Below, one piece after another: positions 14,870-28,987 of a DNA stretch of 64,000 nt (the stretch's first letter is position 1; each line of letters opens with the position of its first letter). The position numbers and the translations under genes are program-made. This stretch comes from Cadophora sp. MPI-SDFR-AT-0126. Its lineage: Eukaryota > Ascomycota > Leotiomycetes > Helotiales > Ploettnerulaceae. Under the pieces are notes generated by a model. The model searched no databases. It saw nothing but the letters and a program-made list of their open reading frames with translations, and had not been told where the DNA came from. The DNA is taken from assembly GCA_020747065.1 (NCBI GenBank), contig JAGMVK010000008.1, positions 558,001 through 622,000 of the forward strand. Direction: 5' to 3'.

Positions 14870-17129
14870 TCATGTTGCAATAGCTTTCGCAAAGGCGTCC
14901 CCATTCGGCTGCCGTCCCAAATATTCCTCCAAGAGTTCCATCTCAGCGCGGCTTCCTCCTCTGCCAAGGACCAGCTTTCTGTATCGCCGACCTTCCTCCC
15001 CATTCATTGGATCTTCCGCAAATCGTGTCTGGTACAGGTCACTCGAATACACCGATGCTCTGTACGCCAGTCAGCCTGCTGCCTTTCAGTCGATCGGAAA
15101 TGTGGGGAAAAAAACTTACATGACATAGGTATAGTATCCAGCATCGTAACCCCCAAACATGTGTGAGAATCTGCTGTGTCCAGAACCCCATCCAAAGTCA
15201 CCGCTTTCAATCTCAAGGCCCAAAAGACCCGTGCATTCGTTACGAATGCGGTTGTACATTTCGCCCGCATTCATGTATTTCGCTTCTTCACTCGACACAG
15301 AATGAATGGCCATGTCGAACTTGGCGAATGCGATTTGTCTTTGTGTCAAAGGTGCAAGTGTCACTCTGCGACTTGCCCCCAGCTTCTCTAAGAGCTCAAT
15401 TGGTGCTTTCTCAGGCGGTTCCAATTCTCCAGGATTCTCACCCTTCCACGATGCCATGTATTCCGGGGATAAATGTGTGTAATGCTTCGATAAATTTTGG
15501 AGGATGACGGGATCCCAGCAAAAGTTCTCGAGCATGCGACTGGGAATTTCCACAAAGTCTCTGGATGTCTTGGTGCCGTAAGTTTCTGCATATCGGGTGC
15601 GTCCAACCAAACAATGAATACCATGGCCGAGTTCGTGGAACATAGTCACGACGTTACGGTGTCTGAGTAGTGTGGGCTTGGTCGGGGTTGGTCGTTGAAC
15701 GGACATCACGAGGACCGCACTTGGATATTGTCGCCCTCCGTCGATGGTATCAAATCCCTACAGTGTGTCAGATAAGCTTCGATGATGAGCAAAAAGAACA
15801 TACCGGCTGGAAGGTAATGCAGCAAGCATGATCTCTCTTGCCCTGTCGCTTTAGGATATCAAGATATAAATATCCCAAGAATCCACCACCCAATGCCTCT
15901 TCATCCCACACAGCATATACCGCGACGTCTTCATGCCAAGTTATAGCAGTCACATCTTCTCCCTGTTTCTCCATGAGATTTTTTCTTGATTCTGTCGAAA
16001 TCTCAATGAACACCACTCCAAATAGAGTCTCGAAGTTCTTCAACAAACCGTTAACAACTTCCTGAAGAGGAAAGAATTCCGCCATTTTATTCTGATTCAA
16101 ATCATTATCCTGCTCTTCCGCTAACTTCATGTAGAACAGCTGGTCCCAAAGAAACAAGCGATCGTCGATGTCAGTCTCTGCGACACCTTGTGAAAGTAGA
16201 TGCTCTTTCTTGAGCTTTCGTAGCTTGTCCCTGCTTGATTCTGAAGCCGATGCTGTCTTTTGCTGAAGATCTGCCAGCAGAGACGTCACCCCGTCCACTG
16301 TCATCAATCGGTTTTGAATCATCAAATCAGCATGAGACTGATATTCCAGCAGGTTGGCATGCCCAGCTCTCAGCTCTATCATCTCTTGAAATGGAGGCAC
16401 ATTGTCAACACACTTGTTCTCGTTGCCCAAGAACATCCGCTTCCTTGTGTCTGGATTCGTACAATTCTTCAAAACCAGGTCCAGATCCACTGTTCCAAAG
16501 GTCACCTTGTGCTTCCCCTTGTTCTCCCCTTCCCCGCTTTTCAAACCCTCAAGAGTATCGCGAGGGAGTCCGTCTAGCTCATCAGTTGTGAACCAAATCC
16601 CACCATTCTCTTGGCGAATTCTTTTTGACCCTTCCGCCTCGATATCATCGATCCTCTTCGTGACAATTTGGAATCTCTCTTTGATCGGTCCCTCCGGAAG
16701 TGCTGCACCACTCCTCACCAATTGGGATAATTTCCTGTCCAGATAATACTGCTCCTCGGAATCCAACACCTCACCCTTTTCCTTCACCGCCTGAAACAGC
16801 ACGTAAATCTCTGGCCTAGCCACGACCTCCTGACTAAACTCAGCCCACATTTTGACGCACTCGACCGAAGCATCCCTCAGTTCTTCGGAAGGAGAGACGG
16901 ATTTGAAGAGGGCCGTGAGAGAGCTGGTCTTCATGCGGGTGTTGCGGTCGTGGATCCATGGGAGCACGAAATTTGCAAAAGTTGCTTCCGAGGGCAGAAT
17001 CTTGACGAAGGCATCGAGTCTTGCTCGCGAGGTTGCAATGGCCGCCTTTGTTATATCTAAGAGACCCGGGCCAGTGTGATTAAAGGCCACAGGGAGCTGA
17101 GGAGGCTGGCGGAATTTGGAGGATCGCAT
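14870..17129 (-). CDS. M3 family zinc metallopeptidase (thimet oligopeptidase / saccharolysin type)
   Basis: Three exons, 15804-17129, 15120-15757 and 14870-15059, join to 717 aa, close to the usual length of about 700 for cytosolic oligopeptidases such as yeast Prd1. The zinc site HELGH is at residues 483-487, and the third ligand Glu about 29 residues later (VEIPSRMLEN). The C-terminus contains FGGYDAGYYTYV then SVYSSDLYQTRF, also typical. Such enzymes cut short peptides, finishing protein turnover in cytosol or organelles. The start is the ATG at 17129; upstream in-frame codons lack an ATG. There is no clear signal peptide. Introns are 46 and 60 bp with GTATGT and GTAAGT donors. The gene is intact. 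Confidence 0.93.
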
Positions 17130-17668
17130 TCTCTGGCAGGGTCGTGAGGCGAGGTGCAAATGTTCTTGGGCAGTGTTGGAATGACTGAGATTTATATATG
17201 AACACAGCCATATGTTTGTACGCGTCAAGACACCTTTTTATGAGGGCACTTCAGCATAGAATAAAGGTCGTTTGCTTGTTGGAGGATGGAAACGCTGGGT
17301 CATGAAGGATGACTGGGTCGTGAAGGAACGCCCTGCTCGCTTGTGCTGTGGGGCACGACTTGTAGCCCTTATTCATTGCTACCTTCTTAAAGTATATCGT
17401 CACATCAGCTATCTAGAAATGTTTGATCTGAAATTCTGGTTTCTACAAAAAGGACACTAGACATAATATCGGCGAACGAAACTGAAATGGCAGTAAGCTT
17501 TTGTTCAACGCTATTCTTTGAAGAGTTAGTTCGAGTGCCTTTCGCTTGAATTAGTGGCCGCAACCCATCTCAATATTGACTTTTGCTGTTCTGTTTGTTT
17601 CTCTTCTCGAAAAACTCATCCTTTCGAGTGTCTCCCAGCACGTTCCCGACGTGGCACCAAAACCCAAG
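17130..17668. other. Divergent promoter region (M3 peptidase / F-box-LRR A)
   Basis: Both neighbours start outward. A TATATAAAT-like sequence lies on the minus strand about 65 bp upstream of the peptidase ATG. No other signal was seen. Confidence 0.45.
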
Positions 17669-23192: not shown

Positions 23193-23334
23193 TCCCTCGT
23201 GGCGCAATTGGCTAGCGCGTAAGTTATCACTAACACTTTGAAATAATCAACATCTAATAATCATCCAGGTTCGACTGTTAAGTTAAATCAGCAGATCAAT
23301 CGAGAGGTTGGTGGTTCGAGCCCACCCGAGGGAG
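23193..23334 (+). tRNA. tRNA-Asn(GTT) with anticodon-loop intron and a second spliceosomal-type insertion
   Basis: The acceptor stem TCCCTCG (23193-23199) pairs with CGAGGGA (23327-23333). The D stem GCGC/GCGC is 23202-23205 and 23215-23218. The anticodon stem TTCGA (23270-23274) pairs with TCGAG (23300-23304). The anticodon GTT is 23277-23279 in the loop CTGTTAA. The T arm is GGTGG-TTCGAGC-CCACC. The loop is split by an 18-nt intron (23281-23298) at the canonical 37/38 position. In addition, 50 nt (23219-23268) separate the D stem from base 26. That insert starts GTAAGT, has CTAAT 11 nt before its end and closes with CCAG, exactly like a fungal mRNA intron. Removing both pieces gives a complete tRNA-Asn closely like other eukaryotic ones. 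The A-box TGGCGCAATTGG and B-box GGTTCGAGCCC are intact. Confidence 0.85.
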
Positions 23335-23346
23335 CAAGCTCGATGC

Positions 23347-23355
23347 TTTTTTTTT
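23347..23355 (+). terminator. Pol III terminator (T9)
   Basis: Nine T in a row lie 13 bases after the tRNA 3' end, followed by further T-rich DNA. This is the expected RNA polymerase III stop and supports a transcribed tRNA gene. Confidence 0.8.
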
Positions 23356-25960: not shown

Positions 25961-28900
25961 ATGGCAGAAGCATTTGCGGCCTTCAGTGTGGCCGCCAATG
26001 TCGTTACGTTTGTCGAATTTGGCACCAAGATCTTCTCAGCCGGCTACCGCCTCCACAAGTCAGCTCGCGGCGACCTGGATGGCAACGAGGCCGACGGAAA
26101 TATTACAGCAGATCTCTCAAAAGTCATTGATGATCTCGAGAGATCTATCACGTTTTCGAGTACTCATCGTCAACTGACTTCAAACGAGCAAGGGCTGCTG
26201 GAACTCGCCAAGCAGTGCAAGACTGCCGCTGCGAAGCTCCTTGTTGCTTTGGGAACCTTGAAGTTCCAAGGCAAACATGGCAAATGGAACACTATCCGAG
26301 CTGCGTTGAAGGCTGTTTGGAAAGAGACTGAAATTGAGGAGATGCAGATGAGCATCGATAGGTTCAGACAGCAACTCATTGTTCGCATATTGGCGTCGTT
26401 GCGGTAAAATGCATACCCAGCCCGTATCTTCAAACATACTTACTTGCTCAGGGACCAGATAGATGGTTTGAAAAGCACTCAAGCCTCGGTTTCAGAATGC
26501 GTCGAAAGGATTGACGACAAAATGCAGGGCGTTGGCGAGGAGTTCCTTGGTCTCATTCAAGAAGCAGCGAGAACGTGGAAGGCCGATATTATTCACGCTA
26601 TTCATCAAGATAAAGCGAATGCTGAGGAAAGAGGGCTTATGAAAGGCGCCACTCAACAGCCAGAAAGGGAAGTCTACCTACAGACGCTGCTGCTTCGCCG
26701 ACTGCACTTTGACGACATGGAAGATCGTCACAATCGTATCTCCAAGGCCCACGAGACCACGTTTCAGTGGCTATACCAAGATCGCGAAGAGGGCATTCCC
26801 CCGTGGTCTAGCTTCACCAAATGGCTAACCAGCGACTCTAACCTTTACTGGATTACGGGTAAAGCAGGATCCGGAAAATCGACTCTGATGAAATATATCT
26901 ACAGCAACCAGCGAACCTTTGACGGTCTGGAGGAATGGTGCGGTGGAAAAGCCCTTCATACGGCAGCGTTCTTCTTCTGGAATTCTGGCTCTGAAATGCA
27001 AATGTCACAGCTTGGTCTCCTAAGATCTATTTTCCATCAGATTCTCAAAAATTGCCCAGGCCTCATCCCGATAGTACTTCCTGCGCGCTGGGAGTCGTCC
27101 GTTCTTTTCGGCGATGATCCACAACCTTGGACTTTGGCCGAACTTCGCAATGGATTCAAGCTCCTGGCAGCAGACAATCTCGATGACAAGAGGATTTGTC
27201 TTTTTATTGATGGCCTAGACGAATTCGACGGTGATCCTATGAACCTGATCAGTCTTCTTAAAGACATTGACTCGTCACCGAACATAAAAATCTGCGTATC
27301 CAGCCGCCCTTGGGTAGAATTTGAGGATGCTTTTAGGGATCGATCCAGTCTGAGAGTCCAAGACCTCACATATCGAGATATACAGGCTTATGTCAGCTCA
27401 CACTTCCTCGCTCATTCTGGTTTTGCTGAGCTAGAGCGACAAGAGCCGGAATACGCAAGTCAATTAATCGAAGAAATTACACAGAAAGCATCCGGAGTTT
27501 TTCTCTGGGTCAACTTGGTTGTTCACTCCTTGTTGGCTGGCTTCGGGAACGCAGACCGGGTTTTGGACCTGAAAAGACGGTTAGATTTCTTACCCCCGGA
27601 TCTTGAGAACTTATACCAGAAGATGCTCAAAAGCCTGGACCCGTTTTATCTTGAGCACGCCTCCCAGCTATTTCAGCTGGTTAGGTCGTCTACTTCGCCA
27701 CCAACCATCTTATGCCTATCATTTGCTGATGAAGACGAAGAATACCTTTTCAAGAGCAAGGTCCAGCCACTAACACGCGAACAACGACTTCTCAGGGCGG
27801 ATTTGATGAAACGGAGGTTGAACAGCAGATGTAAAGGCCTCCTTGAAGTCGCACCTGGGCCCAGTCCAGTCAAATCTTTGGCGACCAGTCTCAACGCTAT
27901 GAGCATGCTGTCAGAGACCCCAGACCGTCGTGCCATCAAAGAGCCTGAAATTACCCTCGCTGATCACACAGTGCAATATCTTCATCGGACAGTCAAAGAC
28001 TATCTGGAAAGTCCGAAAGTGTGGGAAATGCTGCTTGATTCTTGCCACACTCAGTTCGATCCACAGCTGGCCCTTCTTCGCTCTTCTGTCCTACAATTGA
28101 AGATTTTGCATCCCCGTTCACTCGATCACGAGGTCTTCTGGTCAGCAGTCAGCCTCTGCATCTCGTACGCTTCTTTCTTGGAGGAACACCGCCCGAGTGG
28201 TGAGCTTGTGACAATACTTGATGAACTTGATGCGTCGGCAACTCAGCTGGCGAGCCAACCCGGTTTGGACGGCATGAACTTTACAAGATACTATAAGAGA
28301 GCAGAACCACCAATATATGCTGAAAATAATCGCGAGATATTACGAACGACCGTGAACATCAAATCAACAGGTAGTGACACATCGAAGGAAGGACAGCTTG
28401 ATATTTCTCTGCACCCTGGGCTTGTCGGGAACATCTGGCAACCACATTGGACGTGCACATTACTGGAATGGACGGATATCAATGGGTTTTCCTTCTTATC
28501 TCTGGCTGTCAAATTGAACCTCCGCTTTTACGTCAATGCCAAACTTACTAAGGGCTGCCTAATGGCTCAAGGTTTTGGCCTTCGCCCAGCTCTTCTCGAC
28601 GCAGTCGTTCACTGTCCGGAAGCGGACATAGTTTTCCCTTTTCAATCTTTCCCGAATCTCGATACGATCAATCTACTCTTTGAAAAAGGAGCCGATCCAA
28701 ATTGGAGCTATTGTGGCACCACAGTCTGGAAGTTCATTCTTAAAGATGGATTTTACCATGACTCGAAGTTTCACATTGAATATCGGAGGTCGGAGAAGCC
28801 AGAGTTGACCACTTGGTTGCCCACTATATGTGCTTTTCTCCAGCACGGTGCTGATCCTGCTGCGATCGATTCCAGACTTTTCGGTCAGATCAAGGGTGCT

Positions 28901-28987
28901 AGCAAGAGAGGAGATCATATGGAGATCGCGATCCGTGTCTTAGAGTTCCTTCAAAAACCGCCACGCCGGACTTGGCCCTGGCGCTGA
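25961..28987 (+). CDS. NACHT-domain STAND protein (NLR-like)
   Basis: Two exons, 25961-26403 and 26452-28987 (48-bp intron), give 992 aa. The N-terminal 150 residues, beginning MAEAFAAFSVAANVVTFV, look like the alpha-helical SesA/HeLo-like effector region found before fungal NACHT domains. Walker A GKAGSGKST lies at about 284-292 and Walker B LFIDGLDEFDGD near 398-409, followed by VSSRPW, the usual sensor region. The motif HRTVKDYLE is a common marker of this fungal group. The C-terminus has weak ankyrin-like pieces (LFEKGADPNW, FLQHGADPAA) rather than WD40 or TPR arrays. STAND proteins switch on cell death or defence after sensing a ligand; the ligand here is unknown. No damage is visible. 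Confidence 0.88.

Follow-up and report, generated by a model that had tools for sequence, protein, structure and literature searches.

Transfer RNA introns and mRNA introns are taught as the work of separate machines. A tRNA-Asn gene of the fungus Cadophora sp. MPI-SDFR-AT-0126 raises the question of which machine would remove a 50-nt piece that lies far from the usual tRNA intron position and carries the borders of an mRNA intron. The gene lies in a 64,000-nt stretch of contig JAGMVK010000008.1 (positions 558,001 to 622,000), the whole of which we refer to as the window.

RESULTS

Anatomy of the window tRNA-Asn gene

With both introns listed in Table 1 taken out, the window gene becomes a 74-nt tRNA-Asn(GUU) cloverleaf. 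Using a cloverleaf scorer that is blind to splice sites and trying all deletions of 35-120 nt, we found that the top-scoring deletion was exactly the 50-nt piece (73.64, compared with 59.0 for the undeleted gene), in three slip-equivalent registers. The original prediction had held that the tRNA folds well only if two pieces are lost, and that the larger one, after the D stem, begins GTAAGT, carries CTAAT, and ends CCAG; both statements were borne out. The smaller piece had been described as a normal 18-nt intron, and the cloverleaf parse does place it between positions 37 and 38, the position in the folded tRNA that marks a tRNA-endonuclease intron. ARAGORN places this 18-nt intron elsewhere and, once the 50 nt are removed, types the window gene as Asp, while both of its paralogues are typed as Asn. 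In the window as it stands, no tRNA was reported by ARAGORN (bacterial code, default) or by Rfam at the gathering score.

Table 1. Features of the tRNA-Asn gene and its flanks, in window coordinates
Feature	Coordinates	Strand	Basis or remark
tRNA-Asn(GUU) gene, 3 exons and 2 introns of two different kinds	23193..23334	+	Sequence and cloverleaf parse
TATA-like upstream element TAACCAAATAAGA, common to most tRNA genes examined in the genome	23154..23166	+	
Exon 1, positions 1-25	23193..23218	+	Mature sequence identical in three paralogues
A box TGGCGCAATTGG, intact	23200..23211	+	Consensus match 8/8
Putative spliceosomal-type intron, 50 nt, at 25/26	23219..23268	+	
5' splice site GTAAGT	23219..23224	+	
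Branch motif CTAAT	23254..23258	+	A at 23257, 11 nt from intron end
3' splice site CCAG	23265..23268	+	
Exon 2, positions 26-37	23269..23280	+	Anticodon GTT at 23277-23279
Ordinary tRNA intron, 18 nt, at 37/38	23281..23298	+	
Exon 3, positions 38-73	23299..23334	+	
B box GGTTCGAGCCC, intact	23313..23323	+	Consensus match 9/9
T9, Pol III terminator-like	23347..23355	+	Starts 12 nt past the gene

Elsewhere in the window, the ORF at 26444-28987 encodes a protein whose relatives carry NACHT-type domains, and the ORF at 15771-17228 on the minus strand has a Peptidase_M3 match.

Interruption of the tRNA-Asn paralogues

The genome assembly (54 Mb, 38 contigs) was searched with the window gene as query, which returned three places; the mature tRNA as query returned the same three. 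All three tRNA-Asn genes found carry an insert at 25/26, of 50, 52, and 51 nt. These inserts begin with GTAAGT, GTAAGC, and GTAAGT, respectively, and all end with CCAG; their branch motifs are CTAAT, CTGAC, and CTAAC, with the A located 11 nt from the end in each. The 74-nt mature sequences of the three genes are identical, whereas the insert bodies are pairwise 71, 56, and 52% identical, against 53-55% for shuffled sequences. Because the exons are identical while the insert bodies diverge, a dead insert does not explain these paralogues. The pattern is, judging from the sequences, explained by purifying selection on a spliced product together with free drift of the intron.

A count of further tRNA-Asn(GTT) genes, named in advance as a check, thus gave two, both with the 25/26 insert, and no intact tRNA-Asn gene was found with either query, which a strongly diverged copy could escape. 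Probes made from yeast and human tRNAs returned only Phe or nothing. As the human tRNA-Asn probe missed even the three known Asn genes, empty answers from these probes show nothing about absent isoacceptors.

Census of interrupted tRNA genes

Across 73 tRNA loci, we observed at least 26 mRNA-type inserts in at least 22 tRNA genes on 14 contigs, at about 14 sites. The census combined the RF00005 profile (62 of 1988 candidates scored, 52 matches) with tRNA probes, and its totals of split genes are lower bounds. The 73 loci comprise 22 split genes, 49 genes that are unsplit apart from 37/38 introns, and two that were set aside before counting: L084, a tRNA-Ser copy with apparent indels, and L092, a tRNA-Gly fragment. 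L084, on the 33-kb contig C27, is a near copy of a tRNA-Ser gene in which the apparent indels are of single bases, and the contig is perhaps a low-quality duplicate. An ordinary 37/38 intron is present in 35 of the 49 unsplit genes by cloverleaf parse. No Asp, Glu, His, or Tyr tRNA genes were recognised among the 73 loci.

The split genes represent nine amino acids and 12 anticodons: Asn, Ile, Arg (three anticodons), Met, Ala, Thr (two), Gly, Pro, and Ser. Inserts lie at 5/6, 6/7, 8/9, in the D loop, at 25/26, 28/29, 42/43, in the variable loop, and at 50/51, 53/54, 55/56, 58/59, 59/60, and 61/62. Two inserts each are found in tRNA-Thr L083 and tRNA-Gly L088. The tRNA-Ser(GCT) gene L090 (with L103, contig C33:1593330-1593820) has three introns of putative spliceosomal type in addition to a 37/38 intron, making a 253-nt gene for an 81-nt tRNA body. 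What had been presented as a single odd tRNA-Asn gene therefore stands as a case but not as unique, as the genome holds many split tRNA genes. An assembly artefact, one of the outcomes that had been expected to overturn the prediction, is at odds with 26 introns spread over 22 genes and 14 contigs.

Empty sites can be seen in uninterrupted paralogues: tRNA-Met L020 for L044, tRNA-Ser L040 for all three introns of L090, and tRNA-Ile L011 for L042 and L051. The insert of L044 is a clean 53-nt insertion at its site, with the flanks adjoining in L020. Of the 12 anticodons of split genes, 11 also have an uninterrupted copy among the loci found, which makes tRNA-Asn the clearest case of probable dependence on splicing.

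Several split genes had individual features. The intron of tRNA-Pro L086 (contig C3:320000-320350) reaches 116 nt through a long GA repeat, with splice signals kept. In tRNA-Arg L055 (TCG) and L095 (ACG), the B box is split by an intron that lies at 55/56 of the T loop in both genes; the two bodies are no more alike than shuffled sequences. The D-loop introns of tRNA-Thr L056 and L083 begin with the rarer GTGCGT, keeping most of the A box (7/8), and this start possibly reflects selection on both signals at once.

Splice signals and tests blind to them

All 26 inserts start with GTNNG and end with AG, borders of the GTRNGT-like GT...AG kind; the third base is A or G in 25 and the sixth base is T in 22. 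Every insert has CTRAY; its branch A lies 9-12 nt before the end in 25 inserts and 17 nt before it in the remaining one. Of the inserts, 24 measure 49-60 nt; two are longer, at 96 and 116 nt, and the GA repeat is in the 116-nt one. A similarly full consensus occurs a mean of 14.4 times in Markov sequence of 230-kb size (both strands) and 28 times in 230 kb of real sequence outside the tRNA introns. Recurrence of the same signals in 26 inserts of 22 tRNA genes is, on the evidence of sequence, what excludes a chance origin for those of the window insert.

Insert borders were set partly by splice signals and are independent of them in 17 loci. This independence comes from a structure-only test, in which every 35-120 nt deletion was tried with the cloverleaf scorer ignoring splice sites, and a gain of more than 8 with no more than four tied registers was required. 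Twenty-two loci, L084 included, gained more than 8; 19 had four ties or fewer, and one of the ties was GT...AG in 17 of these 19. From the dinucleotide frequencies (GT 5.3%, AG 6.7%), the chance of GT...AG in a given register is about 0.004. The two misses were L090, with its three introns (0/4 ties), and the damaged copy L084 (0/3 ties). L056, L082, and L083 gave 49-66 tied registers in a flexible loop, a few of them GT...AG, and L020, L044, L050, and L092 gained 3-8 with no GT...AG. For L044, L056, L082, L083, L090, and the second intron of L088, borders were taken from paralogues and signals and so are not independent.

After insert removal, ARAGORN with introns allowed found a tRNA in 22/22 split genes and the expected amino acid in 20, the mistyped ones being the window gene, as above, and L044 (Leu); before removal, it found a tRNA in eight and the expected amino acid in four. 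Cloverleaf scores after intron removal were 64.0-73.8 in all 22, with the conserved bases of a tRNA, and the 49 unsplit genes score at least 58, the cut-off used. The three Asn genes (59.0-63.8) and L044 (64.4) also pass this cut-off unspliced because the scorer allows long anticodon-loop introns.

The inserts could instead be unusual tRNA-endonuclease introns, cut at a bulge-helix-bulge as in archaea and Cyanidioschyzon. Such introns may occur several to a gene, and the review PMC4090602 places archaeal tRNA introns at 25/26, 45/46, 53/54, and 59/60, the same as or near several of the sites above. Yet GT, branch motif, and AG accompany every insert, and none of the 26 lies at 37/38 or has bulge-helix-bulge-like pairing, though the latter count is weak alone given the low expectation from shuffled sequences (mean 0.4, maximum 2). 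We regard endonuclease cutting of these inserts as extremely improbable.

Promoter-like elements, boxes, and terminators

We then compared the flanks of split and unsplit genes. A 13-nt upstream motif, TAACCAAATAAGC, matches at 9/13 or better in 17 of 21 split genes (L083 was left out, as its upstream sequence is too short) and 41 of 49 unsplit genes, compared with 4.8% of random window segments. As the motif was derived from these same genes, the fair comparison is confined to how closely split and unsplit genes agree. L042, L048, L049, L051, and L088 have their intron within the acceptor stem or directly behind it; in these genes the motif still starts 40-54 nt before exon 1, although the A box is displaced by a full intron length. 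Pol III initiation directed by the TATA-like element would fit such introns, because initiation positioned by the A box only would begin inside the intron. A run of five or more T residues begins within 38 nt downstream in 22/22 split and 39/49 unsplit genes, against a background of 3.3% of 43-nt segments; the 38-nt limit was chosen after the split genes had been seen.

The intact A and B boxes and the T9 run, which the original prediction had taken to argue for a live gene, are all in place in the window gene. Of the 22 split genes, four have a B box broken by the intron (L055, L095, L086, and L087, with 5-6/9 matches), in L080 the intron cuts it at 7/9, and the A box is down to 6/8 in L082, L088, and L090. 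Split copies with a broken B box or weakened A box may be poorly transcribed, and the four with a broken B box may be silent. No run of five or more T residues occurs inside any of the 26 introns, where shuffles expect only 1.7 and give none in 17% of trials. Compared with mRNA-like introns, the P value for such runs is 0.049 (two-sided) for the window alone, a set that includes the tRNA-Asn intron itself, and 0.13 for a larger but poor set, so that the absence of T runs is no evidence for Pol III.

These observations bear on two further explanations. Split genes might be carried in Pol II transcripts that are capped and spliced like mRNA, which would explain easy access to the spliceosome as well as the four broken B boxes. 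We consider this distinctly improbable: the terminator and upstream element are common to unsplit tRNA genes, and the U6 RNA of fission yeast is a Pol III transcript that is spliced. The split genes might also be pseudogenes, spare and disused tRNA copies into which short pieces of DNA were inserted. Such a reading is in keeping with the broken B boxes and with the uninterrupted copies found for 11 of 12 anticodons, and short insertions in the arms of eukaryotic tRNAs are usually so interpreted according to PMC4090602. Disuse is very unlikely, however, to leave exons tRNA-perfect while inserts diverge, GT, branch motif, and AG kept in 26/26, and promoter-like element and terminator as in unsplit genes; nor did queries with the tRNA-Asn gene's own sequence find an intact copy to take its place, although a diverged one could escape them.

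Introns of U6, other Pol III RNAs, and mRNAs in the same genome

The original prediction had pointed to mRNA-type introns in U6 snRNA, and these can be seen in this genome. The U6 gene L099 (contig C38:2221000-2221300) has an intron of about 51 nt, GTAAGC...CACTAAC...TTTCAG, before the TTGAAACG segment, with borders judged by eye. U6-like gene L096 (contig C11:486450-486900), below the Rfam cut-off, has an intron of the same type at another site, also by eye, and the U6-like matches L097 and L098 were judged by eye to have none. With 47 of 2664 candidates scored, the 26 5S rRNA matches of 119-121 nt had no intron; neither had the one SRP RNA match spanning the whole model (27 of 300 candidates scored).

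For mRNA introns, tubulin genes were used as the reference. Codon bias is weak here, and mRNA introns could not be identified from codon usage; the consensus search of 230 kb (28 against 14.4 expected) yields a poor set. A GT-AG candidate was found at 11 of 12 tubulin junctions tried, one of them probably composite, with lengths of 50-271 nt; CTRAY lies near the end in 10 by eye, and one candidate starts with GTAAAC. The signals are mostly the same as those of the tRNA introns, which are shorter and more uniform, and the 50 nt of the window insert agree with the fungal mRNA intron length that had been claimed for it.

Introners are mobile introns that can populate a single fungal genome with numerous introns of similar length. 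When 11 of the 26 introns were used as genome queries, each matched only its own locus, so that many near-identical copies were not found for these 11. In comparisons of 25 of the 26 introns (L086 left out), three of 300 pairs had z >4, two of them being same-site paralogues; the bodies were otherwise unrelated, and an introner origin was rejected on this result and on the search with 11 introns.

DISCUSSION

We put at roughly 0.9 the probability that a Pol III tRNA-Asn gene here contains a U2-type spliceosomal intron with GT-AG borders, namely the 50-nt insert, and that this intron belongs to a set of at least 26 in 22 Cadophora tRNA genes. The claim of a spliceosomal-type intron in a live tRNA gene is supported by splice signals kept while bodies diverge, identical exons, a promoter-like element, a terminator, the lack of bulge-helix-bulge pairing, and the U6 intron. 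It is also likely that Cadophora has a nucleus in which spliceosomal introns have spread through the tRNA genes, at about 14 sites and with as many as three beside a 37/38 intron in one tRNA-Ser, and that every tRNA-Asn gene found needs the spliceosome and then the tRNA endonuclease.

From the observed gene anatomy, signals, paralogues, promoter-like elements, and terminators, we infer transcription by Pol III, removal by the spliceosome, and an order of events. Pol III would transcribe the tRNA-Asn gene from the TATA-like element and the A and B boxes, ending at the T run. The spliceosome would then excise GTAAGT...CCAG, just as it splices U6 in other fungi, and this step would precede folding because the insert divides the D arm from the anticodon arm. 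Folding into a tRNA and trimming would become possible only afterward, as would removal of the 18-nt anticodon-loop intron by the tRNA endonuclease and ligase. The tRNA endonuclease needs a folded tRNA body, so the 37/38 intron should go second. Both splicing machines would then be needed for the supply of tRNA-Asn, and hence for AAC and AAU to be decoded.

If this is true, translation is tied to mRNA splicing through tRNA supply and not just through mRNAs, and tRNA transcripts of Pol III are within reach of the spliceosome, even with only 5-6 nt of mature tRNA before the intron. The split genes would also let intron gain be tested in a natural setting where structure is strictly constrained and accuracy to the single base is demanded. 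As ARAGORN and Rfam missed the window gene, and ARAGORN was right in only 4/22 split genes before intron removal, split tRNA genes may sit unnoticed in other fungal genomes.

Comparison with known systems

The original prediction knew of no established tRNA case, and the titles and abstracts listed from the literature searched, which included few subscription papers and no preprints, likewise contained no spliceosomal intron in a tRNA. Introns outside 37/38, several to a gene and some at the same positions as here, are described for tRNAs of archaea, Cyanidioschyzon, and nucleomorphs in the parts of PMC4090602 and PMC9602550 consulted. In those texts, unlike here, the archaeal and Cyanidioschyzon introns are linked to bulge-helix-bulge cutting by the tRNA endonuclease, those of the Guillardia theta nucleomorph are 3-24 nt long with an unknown removal route, and no GT, branch site, or AG is described for any of the three. 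Introners resemble the tRNA introns in being many and of similar size in one fungal genome but differ in that the bodies of the latter are unrelated except in some same-site paralogues.

Further likenesses come from other non-coding genes. Nuclear rRNA genes of ascomycetes carry spliceosomal introns according to the title of a paper cited in PMC11782384; there too an mRNA-type intron lies in a non-coding gene, though in rRNA made by Pol I rather than tRNA made by Pol III. Fungal U3 snoRNA likewise has a spliceosomal intron in a small structured RNA, its presence varying between paralogues, according to the part of PMC5832005 (2017) consulted. According to that part, frequent interruption by an intron was known to date in no small structured RNAs other than U3 and U6; it does not name tRNA there, and it cites papers on the fission yeast U6 intron.

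The fungal U6 snRNA, as noted for the genes above, offers another parallel to the tRNA inserts: a short RNA made by Pol III that holds a GT-AG intron of about 50 nt. In fission yeast and other fungi, U6 carries an mRNA-type intron in a Pol III transcript. It differs in its host RNA, which is not a tRNA; in Cadophora, the tRNA introns occupy about 14 sites, with as many as three in one gene.
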